This document shows positions 34,020 to 50,830 of a stretch of 64,000 nucleotides of DNA, piece by piece. Source of the DNA: Chloroflexota bacterium (GTDB lineage Bacteria > Chloroflexota > Limnocylindria > Limnocylindrales > CSP1-4); NCBI GenBank assembly GCA_016191395.1, contig JACPOS010000013.1, forward strand, positions 1 through 64,000. Reading direction: 5' to 3'. A model generated the notes under the pieces. The model did not search any database and had not been told where the DNA came from. It was given only the letters and a program-made list of their open reading frames with translations. Positions within the stretch are counted from its first letter, which is position 1. Every line of letters begins with the position of its first letter. The position numbers were made by a program, and so were the translations under genes.

Positions 34020-35519
34020 CTACCCGCCGATGGCCCGGGCGGCCCGGCCCACGATGTCCAGGAACGGTCCCGGGATCAGGCCCAGCACAACGGTGAGGAC
34101 GCTCGCGACCACGAGCCCGCCCCACATCAGCCGGCCGTGGGCCATGGCCGCGTCCTCCGAACGCGGCTCGCGCATGAACATGTAGACGACGACCCGCAGG
34201 TAGTAGAACGCCGCCGCGGCGGCGTTGATGACCGCGATGACGGCAAGGATGCCCACGGCCGTGTAGCCCGCGTTGCCGGCCTGGACCGCCGCGAGGATCA
34301 CGTACGCCTTCGCGAAGAAGCCCGCGGTCGGCGGGATCCCGGTGAGCGACAGCAGGAAGAGGGTCATGAGGATCGCGAGCCACGGCTCGCGACGCCCGAG
34401 CCCGGCGAAGGTATCGAGCCCCGAGGTCACGCCCGCACGACGCTGGATCGCCGCGACCACGGCGAACGCACCGAGGTTCATGACCGAATACGCGGCGCCG
34501 TAGTAGAGCAGGCCCTCCAGGCCCTCGATCCGGCCCGCGGCGAACGCCGCGAGACCCACGAGCATGTACCCGGTGTGCGCGATGGAGGAGTACGCGAGCA
34601 TCCGCTTCACGTTCGACTGGGTCAGGGCCACGAGGTTGCCGAGGGTCATCGTGAACACGGCGAGGATGATCACGACCTGGAGCCAGTCCACTCGGAGCGG
34701 CCCGAGGGCATCCACGAACAGCCGGAGGATCAGCGCGAACGCGCCGACCTTGGGCCCGACGGACAGGTAGCCGGTCACGGGGGTCGGCGAGCCCTGGTAC
34801 GCGTCCGGCGTCCAGTAGTGGAACGGGACGGCCGCGATCTTGAAGGCGACGCCGGTGGTCAGGAAGCCGAGGCCCAGCACCAGCGCCGGCGCCAGCGCGC
34901 CCCCGCCGGCCACCGCGGCCGCGAGGGCGCCGCTCACGCCCTCGATGCTCGTGGTCCCGGTGGCGCCCCACGTGAACGCAAGGCCGAACAGGAAGATCGC
35001 CGAGCTGAACGAGCCCAGGAGGAAGTACTTGATCGCGCCCTCGGTGGAGTAGCCGTCGCTCTTGTGATAGCCCGCGAGCATGTAGCCCGGCAGGACCATG
35101 AGCTCCAGTGCAACGAACAGGACGAGCAGGTCGCCGGCGCCCGAGATGAGCATCGCGCCGGTCATCGCGAACAGCAGGACCATCGCGAACTCGGCCAGGG
35201 GCAGGCCTCGGGCCTCCAGGTAGTCCGGAGCGAAGACGATCGTGAACGCCACGATCCCCACGAAGATCAGGTCCAGGAACGTGGTCAGGCCATCCACGAC
35301 GTACGCGCCGCCGAACGCCAGCACGCGCAGCGTGCCGTCACCGCCGGCCACGGCCTGGCCCGTCGTGAGCGTGAGCGCCGCCACCAGCGCGAGACCGCCG
35401 AGGCTGACGACGAGGACCGGCCCGCGCCTGCCGGGCACGGCGATGTCGACGAGCAGGACTGCGATCGCCACCGAGACGGCCGCGATGAACGGCCCCAGCG
35501 CGAGGATGTCGTTGGGCAT
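34020..35519 (-). CDS. nuoN: NADH-quinone oxidoreductase subunit N (499 aa)
   Basis: NuoN is one of three antiporter-like proton-pumping subunits in the membrane arm of complex I. About 14 helices are seen, with the conserved core YLLLGSFSSAIFLFGLAF and KIAAVPFHYWTPDAYQGSPTPVTGYLS holding the key lysines, followed by KRMLAYSSIAHTGYMLVG. The ATG at 35519 overlaps the nuoM stop by one base (TGATG). It is the last gene of the complex I operon. Confidence 0.96.
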   Translation of the reverse strand: MPNDILALGPFIAAVSVAIAVLLVDIAVPGRRGPVLVVSLGGLALVAALTLTTGQAVAGGDGTLRVLAFGGAYVVDGLTTFLDLIFVGIVAFTIVFAPDYLEARGLPLAEFAMVLLFAMTGAMLISGAGDLLVLFVALELMVLPGYMLAGYHKSDGYSTEGAIKYFLLGSFSSAIFLFGLAFTWGATGTTSIEGVSGALAAAVAGGGALAPALVLGLGFLTTGVAFKIAAVPFHYWTPDAYQGSPTPVTGYLSVGPKVGAFALILRLFVDALGPLRVDWLQVVIILAVFTMTLGNLVALTQSNVKRMLAYSSIAHTGYMLVGLAAFAAGRIEGLEGLLYYGAAYSVMNLGAFAVVAAIQRRAGVTSGLDTFAGLGRREPWLAILMTLFLLSLTGIPPTAGFFAKAYVILAAVQAGNAGYTAVGILAVIAVINAAAAAFYYLRVVVYMFMREPRSEDAAMAHGRLMWGGLVVASVLTVVLGLIPGPFLDIVGRAARAIGG

Positions 35520-37168
35520 CAGGCCGCGCCCTCGACGGTCTGGACGGCGGAGCCGCCATCGTCGGTGGGGCGGCGTGGGCGGAGCGCGAGCAGTCGCCAC
35601 GCGATGACTGCGACCACGAAGCCGAGCCCGGCCGCGACCCAGATGGGATCCACGGTGATCGCCGTCCCCTGGCCGACCGCGGCCAGGGCGACCTTCGCGG
35701 GACCCGAGACGAGGTTGAGCAGGATCCCCGGGAACAGGCCGAACACGACCACGAGCGCGCCGAGCGGCGCGAGCGTCAGGATCTCCGTCGCGGTCATGTC
35801 GGAGAGGTGGTGCTTGAGCCCGAGCAGGAACGCCGACGGCTCACCGAGCACGACCCGCTGGAACATCCACAGCAGGTACACGGCGCCCAGGATCATCACG
35901 ACCGCCGCGACCGCCGCGACCCACGGGTTTGCGACGAACGAGCCAATGAGCGTCAGGAACTCGCCGATGAAGCCGGACAGGCCCGGCAGCCCCGCGGAGG
36001 CGAAGACGAAGAATCCGAGGGTCGCGGCATACACGGGGGTGAGGGCCGCCAAGCCCCCCATCTTCGCGATCGTCCGGTCGTGCGTACGTTCGTAGATCAC
36101 GCCGACGAGGAGGAACAGGGCGCCGGTGATCAGGCCGTGATTGACCATCTGGAGGATCGCCCCGTCCATCGCCTGCTCCTGGAACACGAAGATCCCGAGC
36201 GTGACGAAGCCCATGTGGCTGACGGACGAGTAGGCGACGAGCTTCTTGAGGTCCGGCTGGACCATGGCCACGATCGCGCCGTAGATGATCGCGATCAGGC
36301 TGAGCACGATGATCAGCGGCGCATAGGTATGCGACGCATCCGGGTACAGCGACAGGCTGAACCGGATGAACCCGTAGCCACCGAGCTTCAGGAGCACGCC
36401 GGCGAGGATCACGGAGCCGGCGGTCGGCGCTTCCACGTGCGCGTCCGGCAGCCAGGTGTGGAACGGGAACATCGGGACCTTGATCGCGAAGGCAAGGAAG
36501 AACGCGGCGAAGCCCAGGAGCTGGAGCCCGTCGGCGAAGCCGGTGGTGCCGGCATAGGCCTTGAGCGCCTCGAAGTCGAACGCGCCTGCCCAGGCGCCGC
36601 CGTGGGCGCCCTGGTAGGCGAACGCGGTGGCGAGGATCGCCACGAGCATCAGCAACGAGCCGACGAGCGTGTACAGGACGAACTTGATCGTGGCGTAGAT
36701 CCGGTTCGCGCCGCCCCAGATCCCGATGATCAGGTACATCGGGACGAGCACGACCTCCCAGAAGATGTAGAAGAGGAACGTGTCCAGGGCGAGGAACACG
36801 CCGAGCATCCCGACCTCGAGGATCAGGAAGGAGATCATGTATTCCTTGATCCGGGTCTGGATCGGGGCGAAGCTCGCCAGGATGCTGATCCAGGACAGGG
36901 TCGTCGTGAGCACGATGAGCGCCAGCGACAGCCCGTCGATGCCGAGCTTGTACTGGATGCCGAAGATCGGGATCCAGTCCAGCTTCTCGACGAGCTGGAA
37001 GCCCTGCACGCCGGCGCTGAAGCCGACTGCCACCCACAGCGAGATCACCCACGCGATCAGCGATGTCACGAGGGCGAGGATCCGCGCCCAGCGCGCCGGC
37101 GCGAAGCCGATGACGAGCGCGCCGACGAGCGGCGTGAAGACGACCGCGCTCAGGAGTCCGACCGTCAT
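35519..37168 (-). CDS. nuoM: NADH-quinone oxidoreductase subunit M (549 aa)
   Basis: NuoM is an antiporter-like pumping subunit. Landmarks are GIDGLSLALIVLTTTLSWISI, the essential glutamate helix FYIFWEVVLVPMYLIIGIWGG, KVPMFPFHTWLPDAHVEAPT and KKLVAYSSVSHMGFVTLGIF. The ATG at 37168 starts three bases after the nuoL stop. The C-terminal 50 residues after the last core helices are a little longer than usual. It works with NuoL and NuoN in proton translocation. Confidence 0.97.
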   Translation of the reverse strand: MTVGLLSAVVFTPLVGALVIGFAPARWARILALVTSLIAWVISLWVAVGFSAGVQGFQLVEKLDWIPIFGIQYKLGIDGLSLALIVLTTTLSWISILASFAPIQTRIKEYMISFLILEVGMLGVFLALDTFLFYIFWEVVLVPMYLIIGIWGGANRIYATIKFVLYTLVGSLLMLVAILATAFAYQGAHGGAWAGAFDFEALKAYAGTTGFADGLQLLGFAAFFLAFAIKVPMFPFHTWLPDAHVEAPTAGSVILAGVLLKLGGYGFIRFSLSLYPDASHTYAPLIIVLSLIAIIYGAIVAMVQPDLKKLVAYSSVSHMGFVTLGIFVFQEQAMDGAILQMVNHGLITGALFLLVGVIYERTHDRTIAKMGGLAALTPVYAATLGFFVFASAGLPGLSGFIGEFLTLIGSFVANPWVAAVAAVVMILGAVYLLWMFQRVVLGEPSAFLLGLKHHLSDMTATEILTLAPLGALVVVFGLFPGILLNLVSGPAKVALAAVGQGTAITVDPIWVAAGLGFVVAVIAWRLLALRPRRPTDDGGSAVQTVEGAA

Positions 37169-37171
37169 CGC

Positions 37172-39190
37172 CTACCGTCCCAGGATCACGAAGTACGAGC
37201 CGGCCATGGCGATCAGCCCCAGGGCGATGCCGAGCGCGTAGTTCTGCACGCGCCCGGTCTGCACGCGGGCGAGGCCGCCGCCGCTCCGGCGGGTCAGGGC
37301 GCCGATGCCGTTGACGACGCCGTCGACGACGTTGCGGTCGAACCAGGCGAGGGCGTTTGCGATCCGCCCGCCGACCACGACGAAGACGAGGTTGTTGATG
37401 TCGTCGAACCACCAGTTGTTGGCCGACGCGCGGTACAGGAAGGGCACGCGCTTGGTGAGGCTCGCGACGAGGGCTGGCCGGCTGGCGCCCCTGATCGGAC
37501 CGATCTCCACGCCGAACAGTCGCCACGCCGCGAGCATCCCCGCGAGCGCGACCGCGATGCTGATCGCCAGCAGCATTCCATCGATGCCGGCGAGCTGGAA
37601 GGCCTCCTCGCGGCGGCCGAGAATCTCCTGGCCGTGCTCGAAGATGGGCTTGAGGTAGCCCCCGAGCAGGCCCTCGCCCTCCATCCCGAACAGCGGCCCG
37701 AGCGGCGGCCCCGGCCAGGTCAGCGCGATTCCGAGCAGGACCGACGGGATCGCGAGGAGCCAGAGCGGCACCGTCATGGTCCGCGGTGACTCGTGGATCT
37801 TGGGCTCCACGGCCGGGTCCACCCGGCTCTTTCCCCAGAACGTAAGGCCGATGAGCCGGAACATGTAGAACGCCGTCATCACCGCGACGAGGATTCCGAT
37901 CGCCCAGACCCACTGGAATCCGAGCTTGAAGCTCTCGCCAAGGATCTCGTCCTTGCTGAAGAACGCCGCGAGGGGCGGGATCCCGGACATCGCGATCGCG
38001 CCGATGAGCATGGTTCGGTACGTGTGCGGGAGCTTCTTCCGGAGGCCGCCCATCTTCCGCATGTCCTGTTCGTCGTGGACGGCATGGATCACGGATCCCG
38101 ACGCGAGGAACAGCAATCCCTTCGTGAAGCCCTGCGCCATGAGGTGGAAGATCGCCGCCGTAAAGGCGCCGACCCCGAGGGCGGCGAACATGTAGCCGAG
38201 CTGGCTCAGGGTCGAATATGCGAGCACGCGCTTGATGTCCGTCTGGGTCAGCGCGATCGATGCGGCGAGGATCGCGGTGAAGATGCCGATCGCCGCGACG
38301 AACGCCATGGCCTCCGGCGCGCTGGCGAAGATCGGGTTGGCACGGGCGACGAGGTAGACGCCCGCGTTGACCATCGTCGCGGCATGGATCAGCGCGGAGA
38401 CCGGCGTCGGGCCCTCCATCGCGTCCGGCAGCCAGACGTGCAGCGGGAACTGGGCGCTCTTGCCGACGGCGCCCGCGAAGAGCAGCAGCGCGATGACCCA
38501 GACCGGGATGCCTCCCGCGAACGCCAGGCTTCCGGTCGCGCCCATCGAGGCCGGGCCGACCAGCAGCTCGATCGAGTCGCGGATGTTGAGCGTGCCAGTG
38601 TTGACCCAGATCGCCATGATTCCCAGGGCGAAGCCGACGTCGCCGACGCGGTTCGTGATGAACGCCTTCTTGCTCGCCTCGGCGGCGGTCCGCTTGCGGT
38701 ACCAGAACCCGATCAGCAGGTAGCTCGACAGGCCGACCAGCTCCCAGGCGAGGAACAGCACGAGCCAGCTGTCCGCCAGGACGAGCAGCAGCATCGAGAC
38801 CATGAACAGGTTGAGATAGACGAAGAACCGCCAGTAGCCGGGGTCGTGGCGCATGTAGCCGATCGAGTAGACGTGCACGAGCATGCCGACCGTCGTCACG
38901 ACGACGAGGAGCACGGCGGTCAGGTTGTCGACGAACAAGCCGAAGTCCACCGTGAAGGTCCCCGCCGGGATCCACTGCCAAAGGGTGACCGCGATGCCAT
39001 CGGTGCCGGCGGGCAGCACGTCGTGGAAGGTGGCGATGACGTACATCGCGACCAGCCACGAACCCACCACCGGTGCGACCGGGATCCAGAACGCGTTGAG
39101 CCCGAGCCGCCGCCCCACCAGCGCCGTGACCAGGAAGCCCGTGAGCGGCAGCGCGATGATCAGGAAGACGAGCATCTGGTGGAGCGTCAT
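37172..39190 (-). CDS. nuoL: NADH-quinone oxidoreductase subunit L (672 aa)
   Basis: NuoL is the distal antiporter-like subunit with the long amphipathic helix that runs along the membrane arm. Conserved blocks are GLFVDNLTAVLLVVVTTVGMLVHVYSIGYM, FLAWELVGLSSYLLIGFW, KSAQFPLHVWLPDAMEGPTPVSALIHAATMVNAGVYL (read as adjoining parts) and DIKRVLAYSTLSQLGYM. Its ATG overlaps the nuoK stop (ATGA). The length is in the normal range of 610-680. Confidence 0.97.
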   Translation of the reverse strand: MTLHQMLVFLIIALPLTGFLVTALVGRRLGLNAFWIPVAPVVGSWLVAMYVIATFHDVLPAGTDGIAVTLWQWIPAGTFTVDFGLFVDNLTAVLLVVVTTVGMLVHVYSIGYMRHDPGYWRFFVYLNLFMVSMLLLVLADSWLVLFLAWELVGLSSYLLIGFWYRKRTAAEASKKAFITNRVGDVGFALGIMAIWVNTGTLNIRDSIELLVGPASMGATGSLAFAGGIPVWVIALLLFAGAVGKSAQFPLHVWLPDAMEGPTPVSALIHAATMVNAGVYLVARANPIFASAPEAMAFVAAIGIFTAILAASIALTQTDIKRVLAYSTLSQLGYMFAALGVGAFTAAIFHLMAQGFTKGLLFLASGSVIHAVHDEQDMRKMGGLRKKLPHTYRTMLIGAIAMSGIPPLAAFFSKDEILGESFKLGFQWVWAIGILVAVMTAFYMFRLIGLTFWGKSRVDPAVEPKIHESPRTMTVPLWLLAIPSVLLGIALTWPGPPLGPLFGMEGEGLLGGYLKPIFEHGQEILGRREEAFQLAGIDGMLLAISIAVALAGMLAAWRLFGVEIGPIRGASRPALVASLTKRVPFLYRASANNWWFDDINNLVFVVVGGRIANALAWFDRNVVDGVVNGIGALTRRSGGGLARVQTGRVQNYALGIALGLIAMAGSYFVILGR

Positions 39191-39504
39191 CGGCGCATCG
39201 CGTCGTACTCGTCCACCAGCGGCGTCTTGCGGTTGCGGAAGATCGCGATGACGATCGCGAGGCCCACGGTCGCCTCGGCTGCGGCCACCGCCATGACCAT
39301 CAACGCGATGATCGCGCCATCGAGCTGCAGGCTGGGGATGAACGCGCCGAACGCCACGATGGCGAGATTCACCGCGTTGAGCATGAGCTCGATGGACATG
39401 AGCATGGAGATCGCGTTGCGGCGCGCGAGGAACCCGAACGTGCCGATCGCGAACAGCATCCCCGACAGCGTCAGGTAGAAGTTCAGGTCGTTGGCGAGGC
39501 CCAT
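39187..39504 (-). CDS. nuoK: NADH-quinone oxidoreductase subunit K (105 aa)
   Basis: NuoK is a three-helix membrane-arm subunit. The family signature is LARRNAISMLMSIELMLNAVNL, with the functional glutamate in helix 2 (SIELMLN) and the second glutamate in AAAEATVGLAI. The ATG at 39504 overlaps the nuoJ stop by one base; longer upstream frames are antisense to nuoJ. The normal family length is about 100. Confidence 0.96.
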   Translation of the reverse strand: MGLANDLNFYLTLSGMLFAIGTFGFLARRNAISMLMSIELMLNAVNLAIVAFGAFIPSLQLDGAIIALMVMAVAAAEATVGLAIVIAIFRNRKTPLVDEYDAMRR

Positions 39505-40088
39505 CAGGCGCCCTTCTCGCGCTTGGCGAGGAAGACGCCGCCGATCACGGCGGCGAGGAGCAGCACGCCGACTGCCTCGAGCACCAGCACGTAGTTCTGG
39601 AACAGCGCATGGGCGACGTACACGGTCGCGGAACGGATGTGCTCGGAGACCTCGCCCCAGCTCGTTCCGAAGGCGGCCACGGACACCAGGACCGCGATCA
39701 CGATCGCCGCGATCGCTGCGGGTGCGGCCTGCGTCTGGAACGTGAGTCGGGCGCTGCCCACCTTCTCCTGGGTGAGCATGATCGCGAACAGGATCAGGAC
39801 GCTGATCGCGCCGATGTACACGATCACCTGGGCGGCCGCGACCATCGGCGCGCCGAGCGAGACGTACAGGCCGGCGAGCGACAGGAAGCACACGATCATC
39901 GCCAGGCCGCAGCGGATGATGTCGCGCATGGACACGACCGCGATGCCCGCGGCGATCATCAGCGTGGCGAGGCCGGCGACGAGCGCGTCGTCGAACGAGC
40001 CGCCAAGGAGGATCAGCACGATCAGGGCAGGCGTGGTGACGATCGCGCCGGCCACCGCCGCGGCGATGAGATACAGCCAGGCTCGCAT
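39504..40088 (-). CDS. nuoJ: NADH-quinone oxidoreductase subunit J (194 aa)
   Basis: NuoJ is a five-helix subunit at the junction between hydrophilic and membrane arms. The diagnostic helix 3 block is VAAAQVIVYIGAISVLILFAIML. The start is ATG 40088, eight bases after the stop of the flavoprotein fusion gene. The N-terminus MRAWLYLIAAAVAGAIVTT is a slightly longer leader helix than in many homologues. Confidence 0.94.
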   Translation of the reverse strand: MRAWLYLIAAAVAGAIVTTPALIVLILLGGSFDDALVAGLATLMIAAGIAVVSMRDIIRCGLAMIVCFLSLAGLYVSLGAPMVAAAQVIVYIGAISVLILFAIMLTQEKVGSARLTFQTQAAPAAIAAIVIAVLVSVAAFGTSWGEVSEHIRSATVYVAHALFQNYVLVLEAVGVLLLAAVIGGVFLAKREKGA

Positions 40089-40096
40089 GCGGTCGG

Positions 40097-42793
40097 CTAC
40101 TTCAGGTGGGCGTGCGCGCCGCCGCCGGACTCGCCGTGCGAGTGCCCACGTTCGAGCGTTGCCGGCAGGACGGTGAGCAGGCGGTCCGACTGGACGTAGC
40201 GGCCCGCGTCGATTGCCCGCTGAAGCCAGTCGCGCTCCTTGCGGATGTACGTGACCTCGGTCTCGCGATCCACCTGGGCCATGGCCATCAGGTCGATCAT
40301 CGGCTCCTCGCGGCTGGAGTGGGCGAGCTCGAACTCGCCGCCGTCGCGGAGCGCGTCGTACGGACAGGCATCCACGCAGATGCCGCACAGGATGCAGCGG
40401 CTCTCGTCCACCTCATACTTCTGGAGGACGCGCGGCTTGGGCATGAGCGCGCCCGTCGGGCACGTCTCCGCGCAGCGCCCGCAGGACACGCACGGCGTGT
40501 CGTTGAGGCTCATGTCCAGCGGCGTCGTGACGAGGGTGTCGAAGCCGATCCGCATGAAGTCGTAGCACGCGGCCCCCACGACCTCGGAGCAGACCTGCGC
40601 GCACCGGCCGCAGTCGATGCAGCGCGACGGCTCGCGCAGGATGAAGGCGTGGGAATCGTCGCGGACGTAGTCGTGGTTGATGCCCGTGAACCGGTTCTCG
40701 TTGACCGAGCGGAGGCCCGCGCCGTCGTGCGCGTTCGGCTCCAGGGTCGTGAGGGTGGTGCCGTACTCGATCCCGAGGCGGCGCAGGTCGCAGTAGCCGA
40801 TGGCCTCGCACGTGCACTGGAGGCAGCGCGTGGATTCGGCGACGATCTCCTCGCGGGAGTACGGGATCTCGTACTCCACGTAGTTGTGGTTGCGCTCCTC
40901 GGCGTCCATGGCCTTGAGCCGGTAGCGCGGCTCCTTCACCTCGGCGGTGAACGGCACGATGGACAGGAACTCCGGCTGCGGCTCGGCGAGTGTCTGGCGA
41001 GTGCGGATCGCGGCCAGGTCGTTGCCGCGCAGGAACGCGTCCACCGCGTACGCGGAGCGGCGGCCCTCGGCGATCGCCTGGACCACCGTCGCCGCGCCGA
41101 CCCGGACGTCGCCCGTCGCGAACACGCCGGTGCGGCCGGTCTCGAAGGTCACGGCGTCGGCCTGGAGGCGGCGGTTCTTGGTCGCCTTGGTGCCCTGCGA
41201 GCCCGGGCCCATCCACGTCAGCTCCGGCCCCTGGCCGATGGCGAGCAGGACGCGGTCGCACGGGATGATGAACTCCGTGCCGGGCGCAGGCTCCGGCCGG
41301 CGGCGTCCTGACGCGTCGGGCGCGCCGAGGGCCATCCGGATGAACTCGACGCCGGTGACGTTGTTGTCCTTGTCCGTCACCACCCGAACGGGGCCGGCCT
41401 GGAAGATCGCGGTGACGCCCTCCTCGATCGCTTCGTGGACCTCGTTGGACGCCGGCATGTCCTTCATGTCGCGGCGATAGACGAGGGTCACTTCCTTCGC
41501 GCCCTGGCGGATTGACGTGCGCGAGCAGTCCATGGAGGTGAAGCCGCCACCGATGACGACGACGCGCTTGCCCTTGTGCCCCGGGTACGGGAGGCCGAGG
41601 GTGGCGGTGCGCAGGTACTCCAGGCCGTCGAGGACCTCAGGTGCGTCCTCGCCGGGGATGCCCAGCTTGTTCGTGTCGTAGCAGCCGATCGCGATGACCA
41701 CCGCATCGAAGCCCTGGTATTGAAGGTCGTCCAGGGTGAAGTCGCGGCCCAGGCCCTGGTTGCAGACGATCCTGCCGCCGAGCCGGGTCACGCTCTCGTA
41801 CTCGGCCTCGAGCACCTCGACCTTGGGCAGGCGGTACTGCGGGATGCCGTAGCGAAGCATCCCGCCGGGGGCCGGGTCGCGCTCGAACACGGTGACGTCG
41901 TGGCCGGCGAGCAGCAGGTAGTAGGCCGCGGCCATGCCGGCCGGGCCGGAGCCGATGACGGCCGCGCGGCGGCCCGTCGCGGGCTGGCGATCGAACGGGA
42001 GCGGCGGGTCGACGTCCTCGTCCAGCATCGACTTGATGACCATGTCGCCCGCGTACCGGTGGCTGTCGCGGATCGCGATCGCCTCGTCCACCTCGTCGCG
42101 GCGGCAGTGGTCCTCGCACGGGGCGGGGCACACGCGCCCGAGCACGGAGGGGAACGGGATCGTCCGCTTGAAGATCCGGGTGGACTCGCGGAAGTTGCCC
42201 TCGGCGTTCTGCTTGAGGAAGCCCGGGATGTCGATGTGGCTGGGGCACTTGTTCTGGCAGGGCGGCAGGCAGTACGCGTTGTGGTCGGAGAAGATCAGCT
42301 CCAGGTTGGTGCGCCGCAGCCGGCGGACCTCCTCGGTCTGGGTCTGGACCTTCATGCCGTCCTCGCACGTGCGCGAGCACGAGATCGGCGGATGGTCCTC
42401 GCCCTCCACCTCGACCACGCACATGCGGCACGCCCCGAAGCCCGGCAGCTTGGGCTCGTAGCACAGGGTGGGGATCTCGATGCCGTTGTCGCGGCAGACC
42501 TCGAGGATCGTCTGGCCCTCCAGGCCCTCGATCGTGCGCCCGTCGACCTCGATCCGGATGCGCGGGGTGGACTGCGGGCGCTGCGGCGCTTGGGTCGTGA
42601 TGAGACGCTCGGCGTGCGAGTCCTCCAGGGGCACGAGCGTGTCCCGCTTGATCGGCTGATCGGGGCGGCTCTCGCCGCGGGCCTCGTGGTCGCGGGGCAC
42701 GTGCGGCGCCGGGCGCTCGCCAGCACCGCTGCCGCCGCTGCGTGACGCGGCGGGGCTCACCTCGCTCGGGGGCCGTTCGATCAGGTCGGTCAT
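40097..42793 (-). CDS. NuoG-position fusion: [2Fe-2S] domain + GltD-like flavoprotein + polyferredoxin (898 aa)
   Basis: After a disordered N-terminus, residues 78-155 form a NuoG-type [2Fe-2S] domain (Cys111, Cys122, Cys125, Cys139). Residues 170-235 hold the GltD-type cysteines (175, 179, 183; 222, 226, 230). The FAD motif VIGSGPAGMAAA (279-290) and a second nucleotide site VVVIGGGFTSMD follow, as in the NADPH-binding small subunit of glutamate synthase. The C-terminus has three [4Fe-4S] motifs: CIDCGRCAQVC, CVSCGRCAETCP and CILCGICVDACP. The molybdopterin-fold domain of NuoG is absent. It sits exactly where nuoG belongs, overlapping nuoF (ATGA). I infer that it feeds NAD(P)H electrons into the complex. 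Confidence 0.85.
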   Translation of the reverse strand: MTDLIERPPSEVSPAASRSGGSGAGERPAPHVPRDHEARGESRPDQPIKRDTLVPLEDSHAERLITTQAPQRPQSTPRIRIEVDGRTIEGLEGQTILEVCRDNGIEIPTLCYEPKLPGFGACRMCVVEVEGEDHPPISCSRTCEDGMKVQTQTEEVRRLRRTNLELIFSDHNAYCLPPCQNKCPSHIDIPGFLKQNAEGNFRESTRIFKRTIPFPSVLGRVCPAPCEDHCRRDEVDEAIAIRDSHRYAGDMVIKSMLDEDVDPPLPFDRQPATGRRAAVIGSGPAGMAAAYYLLLAGHDVTVFERDPAPGGMLRYGIPQYRLPKVEVLEAEYESVTRLGGRIVCNQGLGRDFTLDDLQYQGFDAVVIAIGCYDTNKLGIPGEDAPEVLDGLEYLRTATLGLPYPGHKGKRVVVIGGGFTSMDCSRTSIRQGAKEVTLVYRRDMKDMPASNEVHEAIEEGVTAIFQAGPVRVVTDKDNNVTGVEFIRMALGAPDASGRRRPEPAPGTEFIIPCDRVLLAIGQGPELTWMGPGSQGTKATKNRRLQADAVTFETGRTGVFATGDVRVGAATVVQAIAEGRRSAYAVDAFLRGNDLAAIRTRQTLAEPQPEFLSIVPFTAEVKEPRYRLKAMDAEERNHNYVEYEIPYSREEIVAESTRCLQCTCEAIGYCDLRRLGIEYGTTLTTLEPNAHDGAGLRSVNENRFTGINHDYVRDDSHAFILREPSRCIDCGRCAQVCSEVVGAACYDFMRIGFDTLVTTPLDMSLNDTPCVSCGRCAETCPTGALMPKPRVLQKYEVDESRCILCGICVDACPYDALRDGGEFELAHSSREEPMIDLMAMAQVDRETEVTYIRKERDWLQRAIDAGRYVQSDRLLTVLPATLERGHSHGESGGGAHAHLK

Positions 42794-44109
42794 GCGGTGG
42801 CTCCCAGGCGGATCGGGCGGCAGACGCCTGCCGGACACTCGCCGCGCAGCAGGTGCGCGTCGAGCTCGTCGCGGAAGTAGCGCAGGCCGCTGAGCATCGG
42901 CAGTGTGGCAAGGCGCTCGTGATCGCACAGCGCCGAGCCGACGACGTCGGCGGAGAGGTCGACGAGGAGGTCCAGGTCGCCTGCGCGCGACGTGCCGGTC
43001 GTGAGGCGCTCCCCGATCTCGGCGATCCGGCGGACGCCGATCCGGCACGGGATCGTCTTGCCGCACGCCTCGTCGGCGGAGAAGCGGGTCAGCAGCCGCG
43101 CGACGTCCACGACGCAGGCACGATCGTCGGCGGCGATCACCGAGCCGGACCCGATGTGGGCGCCCACCGAGCGCAGGTCGTCGAACGTATACGGCGTCTT
43201 CAGCTCGCTCGGCGGCAGGATCCCGCCGGTAGGCCCGCCGACGACGACGGCCTTCAGCGACCGGCCCTTCGCGAATCGGCCGCCAAGCTCGACGATCGCC
43301 TCGAGCGGCGTGCCCATCGGGACCTCCGCCACGCCGCTGCGCTCTGGCCCACGGACGTCCACGAGGATCGTGCCGGGCGCGGCGCCGAAGCCGATCGCCC
43401 CGAACGCCTTCGCATGGTGCCGGATGATCCAGGGCACGGACGCGAGGGTCTGCACGTTCTGGACGACCGTCGGGGCGCCGTGGAAGCCGCGCGTCGCCGG
43501 GTGTGGCGGGCGCTGCTCCGGCTGGCCGCGCTTGCCGTCAAGGGCCTTCAGGAGGACCGTCTCCTCGCCGAGCATGTACGCACCCTGGACCGGGCGGACC
43601 TCGATCTCCACGCGCCGACCGCTGCCGAGGGCGTCCTCGCCGATGAAGTTGCGCGCCGTCGCGGCCTCGATCGCGGTCTCCAGGCCCTTGATTGCCTGGG
43701 TCGCGGAGGCGCGGACGGAGATGTACCCGGTCTCCGCGCCGATGGTGAACGCCGCGATCGCCACGCCCTCGATGACCGCGTACGGGTCCGTCTCGAGCAG
43801 CGTCCGGTCGGTGCTCGTGGCGGGGTCCGCGCCGTAGCCGTTCGCGACGACGTAGCGCTCCTTCGCGGGGGTCTCTGCCGCAGCCTGCCACTTCGCGGCC
43901 GTCAGGTGCCCGGCGCCGCCGCGGCCCCGCAGCCCGCTCGCCTTGACCTCCGCGATCGTCCCTTCCGGGCCGAGCTCGCGGACCGACCGGCGGAGGGCCT
44001 CGAAGGCGCCGGCCTTGATCGCATCGTCGAGATCCGCCGGCTTCGAGGCGCCGGCGCGCGCCAGCAGGATGGACGGCCAGCCCTTGGCGGAGGAGAGGAT
44101 CGTGCTCAC
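42790..44109 (-). CDS. nuoF: NuoF-like subunit with altered NADH/FMN loop and lost cluster ligand (439 aa)
   Basis: The fold is clearly NuoF: RGRGGAGHLTAAKW (61-74), GEETVLLKALDG, TRGFHGAPTVVQNVQTLASVP, the SLBB region and the C-terminal cluster domain. Two functional sites are changed. The usual N-A-D-E-x-E-P-G loop that holds FMN and NADH reads NGYGADPATSTDR (90-102). The SCGxCxPCR motif reads ACGKTIPCR, so Cys349 and Cys355 remain but position 352 is Thr; the fourth ligand Cys395 is present. NADH oxidation here is doubtful. GTG at 44109 overlaps the upstream gene (GTGA), and its stop overlaps the fusion gene (ATGA). Confidence 0.88.
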   Translation of the reverse strand: MSTILSSAKGWPSILLARAGASKPADLDDAIKAGAFEALRRSVRELGPEGTIAEVKASGLRGRGGAGHLTAAKWQAAAETPAKERYVVANGYGADPATSTDRTLLETDPYAVIEGVAIAAFTIGAETGYISVRASATQAIKGLETAIEAATARNFIGEDALGSGRRVEIEVRPVQGAYMLGEETVLLKALDGKRGQPEQRPPHPATRGFHGAPTVVQNVQTLASVPWIIRHHAKAFGAIGFGAAPGTILVDVRGPERSGVAEVPMGTPLEAIVELGGRFAKGRSLKAVVVGGPTGGILPPSELKTPYTFDDLRSVGAHIGSGSVIAADDRACVVDVARLLTRFSADEACGKTIPCRIGVRRIAEIGERLTTGTSRAGDLDLLVDLSADVVGSALCDHERLATLPMLSGLRYFRDELDAHLLRGECPAGVCRPIRLGATA

Positions 44110-44783
44110 GCGTCGCCTCTCGACTTCCCGCCGAGCGAGGCGCCGAGCGCATCGAGATAGCCCTGGTCCGTGGCGCGCCGCGCGCGGACCTCCTTCGACT
44201 GGGCCTTGGCGGACGGCGGCTCGAAGCGCAGGTGGCCGTAGTACGAGGCGGTGCCGTAGATCGTTGCGTACCACGCCCCGGTGCGTTCGCTGATCCGCTT
44301 CAGCGCGGCGACGGGCAGGAACCCGAAGGTGTCCTGCGTGTCCTCGAGGATCTGGAGCATCCGCTTGGGGTCGTGGTCGAAGCGCTCCAGGATCTCGTCA
44401 ACCGTCTCGATGTCGAACGGGGCGAAGTGCTCGTAGGCGCGATCTGGCACGGTCCGTCCGGATCGCCTGAGCGCCGATTCCTCGCGTCGCTCGCCATACG
44501 TCTCGGGAGGGCCCCAGTGGACGTGGAAGCGGCCCTTGGTGTCCATGCCGCCCATGTCGATGCACTCGATGGGGCACGCCTGGGCGCATTGGAAGCACGT
44601 CTCGCACTTGAGGCCGCCGTACTCGTCGTACAGCAGCTGGAGCCGGCCACGGAACTTCGTGGCCACGTCGGCCGGCATCTCCGGATACATGACCGTGGCC
44701 TTGGGGGCGAAGAACCGGCGCAGGGTCAGCGCCATGCCCTTGACCATGCCCAGGCCCGGGACGAGGCCGGTCAGGAGGCTCAC
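44106..44783 (-). CDS. NuoI/NuoE hybrid subunit with a single [4Fe-4S] motif (225 aa)
   Basis: Residues 1-90 match the N-terminal half of NuoI: LRRFFAPKATVMYPEMP, KFRGRLQLLYDEYGGLKC and one cluster motif C60-x2-C63-x2-C66-x3-C70-P. The second NuoI cluster motif is missing. From about 115 the chain resembles the helical N-terminus of NuoE (MLQILEDTQDTFGFLPVAALKRISERTG, IYGTASYYGHLRF). It ends before the NuoE [2Fe-2S] domain and has none of its cysteines. The reading frame is uninterrupted, so this is a true hybrid, not a frameshift. It overlaps nuoH and nuoF by four bases each (GTGA). Confidence 0.8.
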   Translation of the reverse strand: MSLLTGLVPGLGMVKGMALTLRRFFAPKATVMYPEMPADVATKFRGRLQLLYDEYGGLKCETCFQCAQACPIECIDMGGMDTKGRFHVHWGPPETYGERREESALRRSGRTVPDRAYEHFAPFDIETVDEILERFDHDPKRMLQILEDTQDTFGFLPVAALKRISERTGAWYATIYGTASYYGHLRFEPPSAKAQSKEVRARRATDQGYLDALGASLGGKSRGDA

Positions 44784-46141
44784 TTCGGGGCCGCCTTCAT
44801 GGCGTCGATGACGAGGACCGCGGCCGCGGTGACGAACAGGTTGAGCAGCGCGGCCGGCAGCAGCCACTTCCAGGCGAAGCCCATGAGCTGGTCGATGCGC
44901 ACGCGCGGGAGCGTGCCACGCATCCACACGAACAGGAACACAAGGGCGAACGCCTTGCCGACGAACCAGAACAGGCCCGCGACCCAGTCGAAGTTGATGT
45001 ACGCCCACAGGCTGAAGATGCCGCCCGCGATCACGTTGAACAGGACGAAGCCGAGGATCAGGGCGACCCACCAGCGCGTCTTGCTGCGGAACAGGTAGAA
45101 CGGCGCTGCGAGGGCGAGGGTCCCGACCACCGGCACGATCGCGATGAGGATCACGAGCCACAGGCCCAGCGAGCCGGGGTCGACGATCCAGCTGATGTGC
45201 GGCGAGGGGAACGGCGCGTTCCAGCCGCCCATGAACAGCACGACGGTGATCGCCGAGATGATGAACACGTTGATGTACTCGGCGAAGAAGAAGAACCCGA
45301 AGCGCATCCCCGAGTACTCCGTCGCGAAGCCGGCGACGATCTCCGAGTCCGCCTCGGTCAGGTCGAACGGGGTCCGGTTCGCTTCCGCCGTCGCGGCGAT
45401 GGCGAAGATCAGGAAGCCCAGGGGCTGGCGGAACATGAACCAGTCCGTGAACCAGCCGGTCCGCGACTGCTGGATGACGATCTCGTTGAGGCTCATCGTC
45501 CCGGCGAGGATCACGAGCCCCACGACGGACAGCGTCAGCGGGATCTCGTAGCTGACGATCTGGGCCGCGGACCGCAGGCCGCCGATCAACGAGTACTTGT
45601 TGAAGCTGGACCAGCCGCCCATCAGCAGCCCCACCACGGTCATGCCGCCGACGGCGAAGAAGTAGAGCAGCCCGATGTTCATGTCCTGGCCGTACAGGCC
45701 GGGCGCGAACGGCAGCACGAGCGCGCTCAGCACCGCTGTGGAGAAGACGACGACGGGCGCCCAGGTGAACACCACCGCGTCCGCCTTGCCCGGCGTGAAG
45801 TCCTCCTTCATGAGGACCTTCAGGCCGTGCACCGTGGACAGGAGGGTGCCCCACGGCCCCACCCGGTCCGGCCCGATCCGGAGGTTCATGAGCGCGATGA
45901 TCTTCATCTCCATGTAGATGATCACGAAGGCCATTGGAACGAAGATCAGCATCAGGATCGTCACGGAGAACACGAACCGGACGATCGGCAGGTTGAAGAT
46001 CAGGATGTCCAGGATCTGCTGCCCGAACAGCGCGATCGTGATCACGAGCCCGAGCGTCAGGACGCCGAGCAACGGGATCAGGATGAACAGCGCCTTCCCG
46101 GGCAGGGTCAACCTGTCCCATGTGCGGGCCACGACGGTCAC
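44780..46141 (-). CDS. nuoH: NADH-quinone oxidoreductase subunit H (453 aa)
   Basis: NuoH forms much of the quinone chamber at the foot of complex I. Landmarks are YMEMKIIALMNLRIGPDRVGPWG, the loop EANRTPFDLTEADSEIVAGFATEYSG and FFFFAEYINVFIISA. It has about eight to nine helices. GTG at 46141 overlaps the nuoD stop (GTGA). Some 20-30 residues at the N-terminus (VVARTWDRLTLPGKALFIL) precede the core and are longer than in E. coli. Quinone reduction machinery therefore looks intact. Confidence 0.96.
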   Translation of the reverse strand: MTVVARTWDRLTLPGKALFILIPLLGVLTLGLVITIALFGQQILDILIFNLPIVRFVFSVTILMLIFVPMAFVIIYMEMKIIALMNLRIGPDRVGPWGTLLSTVHGLKVLMKEDFTPGKADAVVFTWAPVVVFSTAVLSALVLPFAPGLYGQDMNIGLLYFFAVGGMTVVGLLMGGWSSFNKYSLIGGLRSAAQIVSYEIPLTLSVVGLVILAGTMSLNEIVIQQSRTGWFTDWFMFRQPLGFLIFAIAATAEANRTPFDLTEADSEIVAGFATEYSGMRFGFFFFAEYINVFIISAITVVLFMGGWNAPFPSPHISWIVDPGSLGLWLVILIAIVPVVGTLALAAPFYLFRSKTRWWVALILGFVLFNVIAGGIFSLWAYINFDWVAGLFWFVGKAFALVFLFVWMRGTLPRVRIDQLMGFAWKWLLPAALLNLFVTAAAVLVIDAMKAAPK

Positions 46142-47397
46142 TTGTCGACGCCGCCCATGATCGGATCGAGGGAGGCCATGACCGCCATGCAGTCGGCGAG
46201 CAGGCAGCCTGGCAGCAGGGCGCCGACGGCCTGGAGGTGGATGAAGCTGGGGTCGTGGATCTTCAGCCGGAACGGCTGGTCCGTGCCGTCGGAGATGGCG
46301 TACGCCCCGTAGACGCCGCGCGGCCCCTCCACCCCGGACCACGCGCGACCGGGCCGCGGGCGGATCAGCCGCGGGAGCTTGGCCATGATCGGGCCGTCGG
46401 GCATCTTGTCCAGGCACTGGTCGATGATCCGGATGCTCTGCTTGATCTCCTCCATCCGGAGCAGGTAGCGAGCCAGGCAGTCGCCCTCGGTGCGGGTCGG
46501 GATGTCGAACTCCAGCTCGGGGTAGATGGAGTACGGGTGCGTCCGGCGCAGGTCGAACGGGACCCCGGTGGCGCGCAGGTTCGGGCCGGTCATGCAGTAG
46601 CGCAGGGCCATCTCGGTGTCGATCACGCCCAGGCCGGCGGCGCGGCGGACGAAGATCTCGTTCTCGTTGAGGAGGCCCATCCCGGCCTCGATCTGGCCGA
46701 CGGCCCGGCTCATCCAGTCGCCCAGGCGGCTCATGAACTCGTGGTTCAGGTCGCCGTTCACGCCGCCGATGCGGAAGTAGTTGAAGAGCATCCGCTGGCC
46801 GGTCAGCGCGGCGAGCATCTCCACGATCTCGTCGCGTTCGATGAACGACCACAGGATCGGGGTCAGGCCGCCCAGGTCCAGCGCGAACCAGCCGAGGAAC
46901 AGGGCGTGGCTGGCGATCCGGTTCAGCTCCCCGGAGAGGACGCGGATGTACTCCGCCCGCCGCGGCACCTCGACGTCCAGCAGCCGCTCGTAGGCGGTGA
47001 CCGGCGCCCACTCGCAGAACAGCGAGGAGATGTACTCGAGGGGGTCAACCTGGCTGATCGTCTGGTGATAGTCCGCGTTCTCGACGAGCTTCTCGACGCC
47101 GCGGTGGAGGTAGCCCAGGACCGGGTCGATGTCCACGACGCGCTCGCCGTCGAGCTTCAGGACCACGCGGAGCACGCCGTGCGTCGATGGGTGCTGCGGC
47201 CCCATGTTCAGGAACATCTCGCCGTCGCCGAGGGTGTAGAACTCGGCCTCGCGCTCCGTGCGCGGCGTGTACGGCGGGATGGGCTCGTAGAAGTCGTAGT
47301 CGTCCTGGAGCAGCACGTTCGGGTCGTCGGTGGAACGGTGCGTGCCCTTGGGGGCGGGACGGGGTTCGCCCGAGCGGGGCGCGGTCTCGGTCGTCAT
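46138..47397 (-). CDS. nuoD: NADH-quinone oxidoreductase subunit D (419 aa)
   Basis: NuoD lines the quinone-binding site together with NuoB. It shows MNMGPQHPSTHGVLRVVLKLDGE (in two parts), the quinone-site histidine loop GPQHPSTHG, IGGVNGDLNHEF, RGVYGAYAISDGTDQPFRLKI and the terminal SLDPIMGGVDK. The start is ATG 47397, with an N-terminal extension of about 55 residues that is Pro/Thr-rich. NuoC and NuoD are separate genes here, not fused as in E. coli. Confidence 0.97.
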   Translation of the reverse strand: MTTETAPRSGEPRPAPKGTHRSTDDPNVLLQDDYDFYEPIPPYTPRTEREAEFYTLGDGEMFLNMGPQHPSTHGVLRVVLKLDGERVVDIDPVLGYLHRGVEKLVENADYHQTISQVDPLEYISSLFCEWAPVTAYERLLDVEVPRRAEYIRVLSGELNRIASHALFLGWFALDLGGLTPILWSFIERDEIVEMLAALTGQRMLFNYFRIGGVNGDLNHEFMSRLGDWMSRAVGQIEAGMGLLNENEIFVRRAAGLGVIDTEMALRYCMTGPNLRATGVPFDLRRTHPYSIYPELEFDIPTRTEGDCLARYLLRMEEIKQSIRIIDQCLDKMPDGPIMAKLPRLIRPRPGRAWSGVEGPRGVYGAYAISDGTDQPFRLKIHDPSFIHLQAVGALLPGCLLADCMAVMASLDPIMGGVDK

Positions 47398-47405
47398 CTC
47401 GATCC

Positions 47406-47951
47406 TCAGGCTCCCGTCCGGCGCAGGACGCCGGGCGCGGCATCAACCGGGCTGCGCGAGCGCTCGACGTGGCGCACGCCGGCGCCCGTCGACCGTGCCG
47501 CGTCGTCCGGAAGGTAGAAGTCCTTCCGCAGCGGGAAGCTCGTGTAGTCGGGCGGCATGTAGATCCGCCGGAGGTCGCGGTTGCCCTCGAAGATGATCCC
47601 GAACATGTCGTACGTCTCGCGCTCCATCCACTCGGCGCCCTGCCACAGGAAGGTCACCGACGGGATCCGCGGCTCGTCGCGGGACAGGCCCTCCGCGATC
47701 ACGCGCAGCCAGTCCGTGGTCGTCGCGCTCCACAGGTGGTAGACGACCTGCATCTCCTTGCCCGTGTCCACGCCGGCGAGGTCTGCGAGCATCGTGAACG
47801 CGAGGTCCGGCTCGTCGTGGAGGCTGCGCAGCACGTCGATGACGTCGCCCGCGCCGATCCGGATCTCGGTCTGGTCGTGGCGCTGGCGCGCCGCGCCGTG
47901 CAGGACGCTCTCGAAGCGCGCCTCCAGCCTGCGCGCAAGGGTTCGATCCAT
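47406..47951 (-). CDS. nuoC: NADH-quinone oxidoreductase subunit C (181 aa)
   Basis: NuoC is the 30-kDa-type subunit in the connecting part of the peripheral arm. It has the block FTMLADLAGVD, YHLWSATTTDWLRVIAEGL and the signature EWMERETYDMFGIIFEGNRDLRRIYMPPDYTSFPLRKDF (read as adjoining parts). Start ATG 47951; it follows nuoB by five bases and precedes nuoD by eight. The ORF is open further upstream but that part is antisense to nuoB. Confidence 0.95.
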   Translation of the reverse strand: MDRTLARRLEARFESVLHGAARQRHDQTEIRIGAGDVIDVLRSLHDEPDLAFTMLADLAGVDTGKEMQVVYHLWSATTTDWLRVIAEGLSRDEPRIPSVTFLWQGAEWMERETYDMFGIIFEGNRDLRRIYMPPDYTSFPLRKDFYLPDDAARSTGAGVRHVERSRSPVDAAPGVLRRTGA

Positions 47952-47956
47952 CGCCC

Positions 47957-48694
47957 TCAGACCCCGGCCGGCACGGTTGGGCCGATCGCGCGCTCCGGCC
48001 AGTGGCCGCGGCGATCCTTGATCAGCTGCTGGAGCTTCATCATCCCGAAGATGAGGCCCTCCGGGCGGGGCGGACAGCCGGGCACGTACACGTCCACGGG
48101 CATGATCCGGTCGATGCCCTCGACCGTCGCGTAGCTCCGCTTGTAGCGGCCACCCGAGCAGGTGCAGTCGCCCATCGCCACGCACCACTTGGGCTCGGGC
48201 ATCTGCTCCCAGAGGCGGAGGAGCGGCCCGGCCATCTTGGTGGTGAGGGTGCCGGCGACGATGAGCACGTCCGCTTGGCGAGGGCTCGCGCGGAACGGGA
48301 AGGCACCCCACCGGTCGATGTCGTTCTTGGATGTCGCGAAGCTCATCATCTCGATCGCGCAGCAGGCGAGACCCGACAGCAGCGGCCACAGGCTGTTCGC
48401 CCGAAGCAAGTCCAGGACATAGTCCGCCTTCGTCGGGATGATCTCGAGGAGCCCGGACCACCGGGCGTCGTCATGGCGACCGGCGCCGCTCGCATCGAAC
48501 TCCGCGAGGTGCGTGATCGCCGCCGGCTGGCCGCCACTGTAGGCGTTGGGGTCCGCGGGGTTCCAGAGGTCGTTGCGGAGCACGATGGGTTCCGTGACGG
48601 CCGTCGATCCGGGAACGATCAGGGCCGAGGAGGTCGCGGCCTTCGCCGCCACCTCGGCCGGCGTGGGCGCCCACGGCTTCTTCGTCTCGGTCAT
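47957..48694 (-). CDS. nuoB: NADH-quinone oxidoreductase subunit B (245 aa)
   Basis: NuoB carries cluster N2, the last iron-sulfur centre before quinone. The ligands are in [18 protein letters not shown] (usually GxCxxxGG) and [11 protein letters not shown], so all four cysteines remain. The core begins near residue 85; a hydrophilic extension of about 75-80 residues precedes it and has no counterpart in E. coli NuoB. ATG at 48694 overlaps the nuoA stop (ATGA). The presence of N2 shows that the quinone end of the chain is normal despite the altered input end. Confidence 0.96.
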
Positions 48695-49071
48695 CGGCCG
48701 GGCCCGCCCCAGCTGAGCACGCCCTTGCGCCACGCGTAGCCCAGGCCAAGCAGCAGGATCGCCACGAAGATCAGCATGCTGGTGAAGCCGGTGATCGGGT
48801 CCGGCAACGACCGGAAGACCAGCGCCCAGAGGTAGATGAAGATCACCTCGATGTCGAACGCCACGAACAGCAGGGCGTAGATGTAGAAGCTCAGGCCGAA
48901 CCGCCCGTGCGTGTCGCCATACGTGTCGATGCCCGACTCGTACGGCATTCCCTTGTGCATGTCGCCGCGGTTGCGGTGCGAGATCAGCCACGCGGCGCCG
49001 AAGGTCAGGAACGTGAACGACCCGGCGGCGAAGGCAAACCCGATGACGTACCAGATCCCGGTCAAGGCCAT
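48691..49071 (-). CDS. nuoA: NADH-quinone oxidoreductase subunit A (126 aa)
   Basis: NuoA is a three-helix membrane subunit at the arm junction. The family block is [44 protein letters not shown] (read in parts: [22 protein letters not shown]). The start is ATG 49071. It is the first gene of the complex I operon, and the 500 bp upstream holds its promoter. Confidence 0.95.
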
Positions 49072-49554: not shown

Positions 49555-49580
49555 GTTGCGCTCCCAGCGGTCAGTCGGAA
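49555..49580 (+). repeat. repeat copy 3 (direct)
   Basis: GTTGCGCTCCCAGCGGTCAG then TCGGAA. It overlaps the last codons and stop of the methyltransferase gene. Confidence 0.55.
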
Positions 49581-50830
49581 GCCGGAAGGCCTCGGAGGCG
49601 GGAGGCAGCAGGGAGCCCGCGGCCGAATGCGAGGACCGCGAAGGCGCCGGTCGCACGAGGGTCGAGCATGCGCATGAGCGCGGAGCGCGCTTCCACGTAG
49701 GACTGGAGGGTGGAGGCGGGGTCCGTCTGGAGCGCCACGAGCAGCTCACCGGCGTCGAGGTCGTCCAGGAACCGCGCCTGCGTCGTGCGGCCCAGCGGCT
49801 TCAGCCCGGTGGCGGTCGCCGCGCGTTCGACTGCTGTGAGGTCGACGTGGGCGGTAAGGTCCTGGCGCCCGATCGCGACGAATGGATCGGCGTGAACCCG
49901 ATGCCGGTGGTAGGCCCGCAGCGTGGAGCCGCGAGCGGCGGTGTACAGCTCCGGTGCCGGGTAACCGTAGTCGATCAGGAGCAGCTCGCCTCGCTCGAGC
50001 GGCTGCGTGGCGCGGGCGACCCAGTCGTCGACCGCCACGCAGATCTCGGCCGGCTGGCCCGGTTCCAGGCGGATGCCTTCCGAGTCGAGCCGTGCCGCGA
50101 GGGCCGGCGTCGATGGGGGACCGAGTGCGGTCGCGAATTGGGCACCCGCGTCGCCGGCGGCGCCAGGGGACCCCGCGGCGAGCGACGCAGCGCCGCCGAG
50201 GGTGACGAACCGCTCCAGCAGGGCGCCGTCGGGCGCGCCCTCGACTCGATGGATCGGCATTGCGTCGAGGAGCTCGTTGGCGAGAATCGCGCCTGGCGCC
50301 GCCATGGCATCGAACGGCTCGAGATGGCGACCCAGGCCCTGGGCAGCGAGTCGTTCGGCGAGGGCGTCCAGCCTCGCGGGTGCGACGTCGACCGCCTGAT
50401 AGCGGATGGCGTCGAGCAGGGGCGACCCGGAGCGTCGCAGTCCGTCGAGGATGCCCGCGGCCAGCGCGCCTGAGCCCGCGCCGTGCTCGCGGACCACGAA
50501 GTGCGACGGCGTGTCCAGCGCAAACCAGACGGATTCGAGGTGGCGCGCGACCGCCCACCCGAAGATGGGATGGCCCTCCGGGGCGGTCAGGAAGTCGCCG
50601 TGCCGACCGGGACCGGTGGCGCCGCTCGTGTAGTAGCCGGCCTCCGGGTCGTACAGCGCCAGCTCCATGAACCGGGCGAACGTCATCGGCCCGTTGGTGC
50701 GGATCTCCGCGACGATGCGGTCGACGAGGCGCGGATGGCTCTCGGGAAGCGGCGCACCTGGGTCCAGCTCCTCGACGCGCCGAAGCCCGAAGACGAACGG
50801 GCGTCGGGGCGAGCCGGGCGAGCTCGTCAC
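49571..50830 (-). CDS. NDUFAF7/MidA-family SAM-dependent methyltransferase (419 aa)
   Basis: The protein has the DUF185 methyltransferase fold: RIVAEIRTNGPMTFARFMELALYDPEAGYY at the N-terminus, the SAM loop EHGAGSGALAAGIL, and ANELLDAMPIHRVE (family ANELFDALPVH). Mitochondrial NDUFAF7 methylates an arginine of NDUFS2, the NuoD counterpart, during complex I assembly. Here the gene lies directly upstream of nuoA on the same strand, which supports a complex I maturation role. The GTG start at 50830 overlaps the upstream gene (GTGA). Repeat copy 3 covers its 3' end. Confidence 0.88.
   Translation of the reverse strand: MTSSPGSPRRPFVFGLRRVEELDPGAPLPESHPRLVDRIVAEIRTNGPMTFARFMELALYDPEAGYYTSGATGPGRHGDFLTAPEGHPIFGWAVARHLESVWFALDTPSHFVVREHGAGSGALAAGILDGLRRSGSPLLDAIRYQAVDVAPARLDALAERLAAQGLGRHLEPFDAMAAPGAILANELLDAMPIHRVEGAPDGALLERFVTLGGAASLAAGSPGAAGDAGAQFATALGPPSTPALAARLDSEGIRLEPGQPAEICVAVDDWVARATQPLERGELLLIDYGYPAPELYTAARGSTLRAYHRHRVHADPFVAIGRQDLTAHVDLTAVERAATATGLKPLGRTTQARFLDDLDAGELLVALQTDPASTLQSYVEARSALMRMLDPRATGAFAVLAFGRGLPAASRLRGLPASD

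Follow-up and report, generated by a model that had tools for sequence, protein, structure and literature searches.

Complex I (Nuo, 14 subunits) is normally viewed as having a fixed core and NADH as its substrate. The described systems that come closest to the locus studied here include the Stn/NfnABC transhydrogenases, represented by StnABC of Sporomusa ovata and NfnABC of Caldicellulosiruptor, in which a GltD module lies within a NuoG-like protein. Stn is a soluble enzyme (PMC7483475, PMC10482914); the electron path in StnC runs from flavin adenine dinucleotide (FAD) through C7, C6, C5, C4 and C3 to StnB (PMC10482914), and the flavin mononucleotide (FMN) of the B subunit is the proposed bifurcating flavin of both Stn and HydABC (PMC10482914, PMC9499530). 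Complex I-like enzymes of 11 subunits do without NuoEFG (PMC11238625), and a second complex I cluster of Chloroflexus aurantiacus is reported to be loosely arranged, to lack nuoG and to have nuoF far away (PMC3150298). The subject of this work is a nuo operon on the minus strand of a 64,000-nucleotide stretch (hereafter the window) of contig JACPOS010000013.1, from a Chloroflexota bacterium of the class Limnocylindria, in which a NuoF-like protein, here called NuoF', has an altered NADH site.

This locus resembles respiratory complex I in its operon, in NuoA-D, H and J-N, in the N2 cysteines of NuoB and in the quinone-site region of NuoB and NuoD; it differs in that the NADH site of NuoF is altered, NuoE is truncated, NuoI is carried on two proteins, and NuoG bears a GltD module and has no molybdopterin domain. 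With Stn/NfnABC it shares the GltD module within a NuoG-like protein, and their B subunit is the closest structure to NuoF', whereas the operon link to a quinone-reducing membrane complex sets our locus apart and the FMN/NADH site, the HydB-type C-terminal clusters and the FdhF-like domain are changed or absent in it. As in the 11-subunit enzymes (PMC11238625), a functional NADH module is not expected; unlike in those, NuoE, NuoF and NuoG are present but remodelled, and the flavin/nucleotide module is covalently attached. The Chloroflexus second cluster, compared by its description only (PMC3150298), is not described as having NuoG-GltD content, and no description of the present arrangement was found in the literature searched. 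We consider it probable that the operon encodes a proton-pumping complex I with a relocated electron entry, in which electrons are taken in at the FAD of the GltD module, NuoI is assembled in trans and NuoF' is a structural dead end.

NuoF' and the two proteins beside it

The operon reads A-B-C-D-H-(I-E)-F'-G'-J-K-L-M-N, so that NuoA, B, C, D, H, J, K, L, M and N all lie within it together with three remodelled proteins, whose features are as follows.

44106-44783, minus: I-E fusion (P0004, 225 aa), the N-terminal half of NuoI joined to a truncated NuoE
44541-44738, minus: N-terminal half of NuoI with the cluster-1 motif CETCFQCAQACP (TIGR01971 positions 1-65)
44214-44402, minus: NuoE stub (PF01257 positions 1-63), without the [2Fe-2S] cysteines
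42790-44109, minus: NuoF' (P0002, 439 aa), of the NuoF/HydB-type fold, with an altered NADH loop and one cluster cysteine gone
43804-43842, minus: NuoF' residues 90-102, NGYGADPATSTDR, in place of NADExEPG
43042-43068, minus: NuoF' residues 348-356, ACGKTIPCR, with Thr352 for the middle cysteine
42925-42927, minus: Cys395 of NuoF', the third kept cluster cysteine, within LCDHER (residues 395-397: 42919-42927)
40097-42793, minus: G' (P0003, 898 aa), a NuoG N-terminus, a GltD-type FAD/NADPH module, a NuoG-type 2[4Fe-4S] domain and the second half of NuoI
42335-42562, minus: [2Fe-2S] ferredoxin domain of G', N1b type (PF13510, residues 78-153)
41024-42271, minus: GltD/NfnL-type module of G' (Fer4_20, FAD and NAD(P)H Rossmann folds), about residues 175-590
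40445-40636, minus: NuoG/HydA-type 2[4Fe-4S] domain of G', about residues 720-783
40292-40432, minus: C-terminal half of NuoI on G', with the cluster-2 motif CILCGICVDACP followed by FELAHSSR (TIGR01971 positions 71-117)

An earlier note, made from the DNA letters, had described a NuoF-like frame at 42790-44109 with NGYGADPATSTDR at residues 90-102, and this was borne out, the frame running on the minus strand from a GTG start codon at 44109 down to 42790. The ACGKTIPCR motif with Thr352 is also as described there, and Cys349, Cys355 and Cys395 are all retained; NuoF' thus has neither the NADExEPG loop nor four N3 cysteines. The claim that the NADH-loop acids are missing holds at two of three positions: aligned to NADExEPG, the loop keeps N90, D95 and P96 and has lost two acids (now Tyr92 and Gly93), while the third is still there as Asp95. 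Residues of NuoF' are given FMN and NADH roles after the Thermus and Aquifex structures.

The fold of NuoF' is well kept, as the note had stated. Its AlphaFold model has a mean predicted local distance difference test score (pLDDT) of 91.6, and Foldseek gave a template modelling (TM) score of 0.94 to the NfnABC B subunits; NfnABC/Stn B subunits are the nearest structural neighbours. With VIA, NuoF' matched 9bov_B at Z 55.1 over 433 residues (root-mean-square deviation 1.5 Å) and Aquifex NuoEF at Z 48.8. The protein has the Pfam domains Complex1_51K and NADH_4Fe-4S, phmmer matched it to HydB, StnB/NfnB, FdsB and NuoF chains with 9bov_B at the top, and against the NCBIfam NuoF model it scored 347.7 bits, under the cut-off of 558.65. 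It terminates soon after a CPAGVC motif, so the C-terminal 2[4Fe-4S] domain of the Stn/NfnABC B subunit is missing. C332, H419, C425 and C430, which could be zinc ligands, are invariant in our NuoF' alignment (A1) but are lost in one family of the class (f2; the families are numbered f1 to f5 here) and in some C-terminally truncated copies.

The changes next door go beyond what the earlier note had reported, which mentioned neither the strand, nor the fusion and splitting of neighbouring subunits, nor the intact GltD-type FAD/NADPH site; it is probably because of this site that NuoF could be disarmed. G' can be aligned to StnC and to NfnABC chain A across about residues 75-812, and its GltD-type domain is fused to a NuoG-like protein; after the dicluster domain comes one more motif of four cysteines, and its end is a NuoI half and not an FdhF-like domain. 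The cofactor ligands and nucleotide motifs of G' are conserved from the window clade out to distant Chloroflexota. G' retains the equivalent of StnC R239, and where StnC has K170, a cluster ligand there (PMC10482914), each of the 26 aligned G' proteins has His245.

An intact two-cluster NuoI was not found in the window. The tail of G' (the last 78 residues of the search piece) matches NuoI chains beyond the cluster motif over at most 52 query residues, for example 8qby_I 99-141. Among the 15 Limnocylindria genomes tested, none has an intact NuoI over the curated cut-off, which was reached in 3 of 18 genomes in all, namely those with ordinary complex I. The N-terminal half is present in all 15 and the C-terminal half, among the matches listed, in 14; in the fifteenth (G396) the G' frame reaches the end of the available stretch. 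In the 2[4Fe-4S] ferredoxin fold each cluster is bound by three cysteines of one motif and one of the other, and because each cluster draws ligands from both motifs the NuoI domain would have to form in trans.

Conservation, spread and rates of change

The altered sites were compared in 50 related loci from a genome scan, all recorded as Chloroflexota or Thermomicrobiales and several as Limnocylindrales; the cysteine motif was readable in all 50 and the loop in 47. Every locus keeps the three cysteines and has threonine (49) or serine (1, L018) at position 352. In the loop, position 92 is Tyr in 44 loci, Phe in 2 and Cys in 1, and never Asp; 23 loci have Gly at position 93, 18 have Gln and 6 have Glu, and at position 95 all 47 have Asp. 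The same cysteine motif occurs in eight f2 genomes, seven of them outside that set's own scan. The substitutions asked after in the earlier note are hence fixed across a clade, and close relatives with the normal motifs, which would have spoken for a mutation of one strain, were not seen among the 50 loci. A strain-specific mutation or assembly error is ruled out by the same changes in 50 independent loci, and chance is excluded by the many independent metagenome-assembled genomes that share them. His397 and Glu398 are conserved in 50 of 50 loci, and His397 also in every f1 and f2 row seen. His397 stands where ordinary proteins read CGLG. It is possibly a replacement cluster ligand for the lost Cys352.

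When NuoF' rows from loci with this module were aligned site by site with 19 ordinary proteins, no NuoF' row had kept the NADE Asp; the Glu of that motif is Gly, Gln or Glu in f1 and f2 and Asp in f4 and other families. The middle cluster cysteine is lost in f1, f2 and f3. The fen sub-clade additionally lacks the NNVET asparagines, and in G067, a small f2 genome (L101:3592-4857), the FMN loop GRGGAG has become CHRDGG, Ser takes the place of the FMN lysine and GEST that of GEET, with G' intact. The simplest order of events would be that the loop Asp was lost first and Cys352 later, in the f1-f3 lineage.

Our survey of distribution covered Chloroflexota. The I-E fusion occurs in five families of the class (f1, f2, f3, f4 and f5) and also in Chloroflexota outside it; it lies inside full nuo operons in f1-f3 and in the order B-D-IE-F-G at the f4 loci. 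The other Chloroflexota have B-IE-F-G, with A-C-D-H at a separate locus in the two genomes inspected. These other Chloroflexota (loci L092, L096, L099, L168 and L169) also carry an ordinary complex I. A plasmid search gave no full-length I-E fusion. In our tree, all module NuoF' rows are split by a 100/96 branch from NuoF, FdsB, HydB and StnB together, and those of f1-f3 are split by a 100/95 branch from the rest.

Within the genus, the ratio of nonsynonymous to synonymous substitutions (dN/dS), obtained by a simple counting method without a codon-bias model, was about 0.27 for NuoF', 0.13 for G' and 0.09-0.18 for NuoD. The NuoF' gene is under purifying selection; the open frame, the high-confidence fold and this ratio rule out plain pseudogene decay. 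At loci whose NuoD is 78-80% identical to that of the window, NuoF' is 63-66% identical (58% in L022) and GltD 82-87%. The NuoF of ordinary complex I in Chloroflexota is 75-80% identical at NuoD 79%, 79% at NuoD 88% and 69-70% at NuoD 77-78%. By these identities NuoF' diverges much faster than NuoD and GltD, whereas ordinary NuoF roughly keeps pace with NuoD, and constraint appears to have shifted from NuoF to GltD. Of 85 positions at least 90% conserved in ordinary NuoF/HydB/FdsB, NuoF' keeps 68% in broad functional windows and 74% elsewhere. The earlier view of selective change at functional sites rather than general decay therefore stands in part: because of the 68% versus 74% retention and the fast divergence of NuoF' relative to NuoD, the loss, as judged from these alignments, is specific but not isolated, being targeted on top of a general relaxation.

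As far as gene content shows, there is no back-up gene for NuoI or for the NuoF of complex I. In f2, each of the 17 genomes with any PF01512 match has exactly one. The sole other match in the genome of the window is to an FdsB-type protein whose motifs are normal and whose gene neighbours a formate dehydrogenase-like one, and a second normal NuoF serving complex I in this genome was rejected as a candidate, that protein being the only other one with PF01512. At this locus (L002, G000:C9:96472-97695), the FdsB-type protein is a NuoEF fusion with NADESEPG and SCGQCVPCR, followed by the formate dehydrogenase-like frame. Separate HydB-like proteins (L116, L117 and L118) with NADEGDPG, SCGKC(T/V)PCR and CPAGVC occur in some f1 genomes. 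A search with E. coli Ndh in 24 genomes of the class gave no match in four of four f2, five of ten f1 and two of six f3 genomes, although a distant type II NADH dehydrogenase (NDH-2) could escape it. NQR was absent in all 15 Limnocylindria genomes tested, and neither a second NuoF, an Ndh-type NDH-2 nor NQR was found in G067.

Electron entry and the competing explanations

From these results, a route for electrons may be proposed. NAD(P)H, most likely NADPH, would be oxidised at the FAD of the GltD-type module in NuoG, and electrons would pass over the [4Fe-4S] clusters of the module to the N5-like position of NuoG, from there to the NuoI clusters, held by a ferredoxin domain built in trans from the I-E fusion and the C-terminus of G', and on through N2 to quinone. 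Insertion of the module at the N5 region of NuoG would allow electrons to leave toward NuoI, and N1b, N3 and NuoF' would form a side branch; this would account for the loss of one N3 cysteine, of the NADH site and of the NuoE cluster from a complex whose G' is nearly invariant. NuoF' and the NuoE stub would lie off the path and hold the arm together, NADH oxidation having been given up and FMN presumably lost from NuoF'. That the whole, with a structural NuoF', GltD-type NADPH entry on NuoG and a two-chain NuoI, is a proton-pumping NADPH:quinone oxidoreductase and the only complex I of Limnocylindria has, in our estimate, a little better than an even chance. In the phylum sample, PntB was present in 38 of 38 genomes of the class and in 72 of the 263 remaining genomes (two of the 72 with matches under the cut-off), a pattern that fits an NADPH-fed complex.

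Several points weigh against this interpretation. The window NuoF' still has the FMN-contact residues GRGGAG, K73, N90, GEE, N218 and T221, so weak FMN binding is possible. The choice of NADPH rather than NADH as donor is suggested by family and motif. The PntB association is essentially that of one clade and may be due to ancestry, and the PntB list does not include the genomes of f38 and f13 in which the module accompanies an ordinary complex I. The model of G' has a pLDDT of 60.6 and is confident in the GltD region only.

If NuoF' had kept FMN and still oxidised NADH through a remodelled loop, GltD would be an extra input. The purifying selection on its gene and the retention of N90, D95, K73, GEE and T221 across most of the clade (GRGGxG, K73, GEE and T221 being kept in most module rows) would suit such a role, which we nevertheless regard as unlikely given that the NADE Asp is gone in every row and the middle cluster cysteine in f1, f2 and f3, that the fen sub-clade lacks the NNVET asparagines and G067 the FMN loop, that the window NuoE has no [2Fe-2S] cysteines, and that NuoF' evolves faster than its ordinary counterpart. 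A complex I fed by ferredoxin or flavodoxin like the 11-subunit type, with GltD exchanging electrons with NADP(H), possibly in reverse, would make use of the many conserved Fe-S clusters of G', and GltD-family enzymes can run in both directions; the intact FAD and nucleotide motifs favour a nucleotide substrate, however, and no ferredoxin-specific docking domain was identified, which makes this quite improbable. The architecture of NuoG-GltD with a B subunit, shared with Stn/NfnABC, and the structural nearness of NuoF' to their B subunits recall an electron-bifurcating enzyme of that kind set on a membrane arm, with NuoF' as one branch. We hold this to be very improbable, since the proposed bifurcating flavin of Stn and HydABC is the B-subunit FMN (PMC10482914, PMC9499530), whose site in NuoF' is altered or missing, as are the HydB/StnB C-terminal ferredoxin domain and the NuoE cluster.

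Throughout a class of uncultured bacteria from soil and freshwater, then, the only complex I gene set appears to have a disabled NADH subunit, with intake moved to an NADPH-type domain within the adjacent subunit. If entry at GltD is correct, a large environmental clade of bacteria respires via a complex I fed at another flavin, probably by NADPH; the case would illustrate the swapping of an entry module, with the old one kept as a scaffold, a two-cluster ferredoxin domain could be shared between two chains, and the redox role of PntAB in these organisms would become open to a direct test. For automatic annotation the gene is a warning, as it would be labelled NuoF.

Remaining subunits and surroundings

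The other subunits of the operon are given below; alignment confirmed the N2 cysteines of NuoB and the quinone-site motif of NuoD.

48691-49071, minus: NuoA (PF00507)
47957-48694, minus: NuoB, N2 cysteines present by inspection (alignment)
47406-47951, minus: NuoC (synteny)
46138-47397, minus: NuoD, GPQHPSTHG and quinone-site region present by inspection (alignment)
44780-46141, minus: NuoH (synteny)
39504-40088, minus: NuoJ (synteny)
39187-39504, minus: NuoK (synteny)
37172-39190, minus: NuoL (PF00361, PF00662)
35519-37168, minus: NuoM (PF00361)
34020-35600, minus: NuoN open reading frame, start codon not fixed (PF00361)

Elsewhere in the genome of the window (L167, G000:C9:170000-180000) lies a group-4 hydrogenase or formate-hydrogenlyase-like set with antiporter-like, NuoD-like, NuoB-like and ferredoxin-like frames. 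Directly upstream of nuoA, at 49571-50938 on the minus strand, is a Methyltransf_28 (PF02636) gene of the MidA/NDUFAF7 family, which is linked to complex I assembly.

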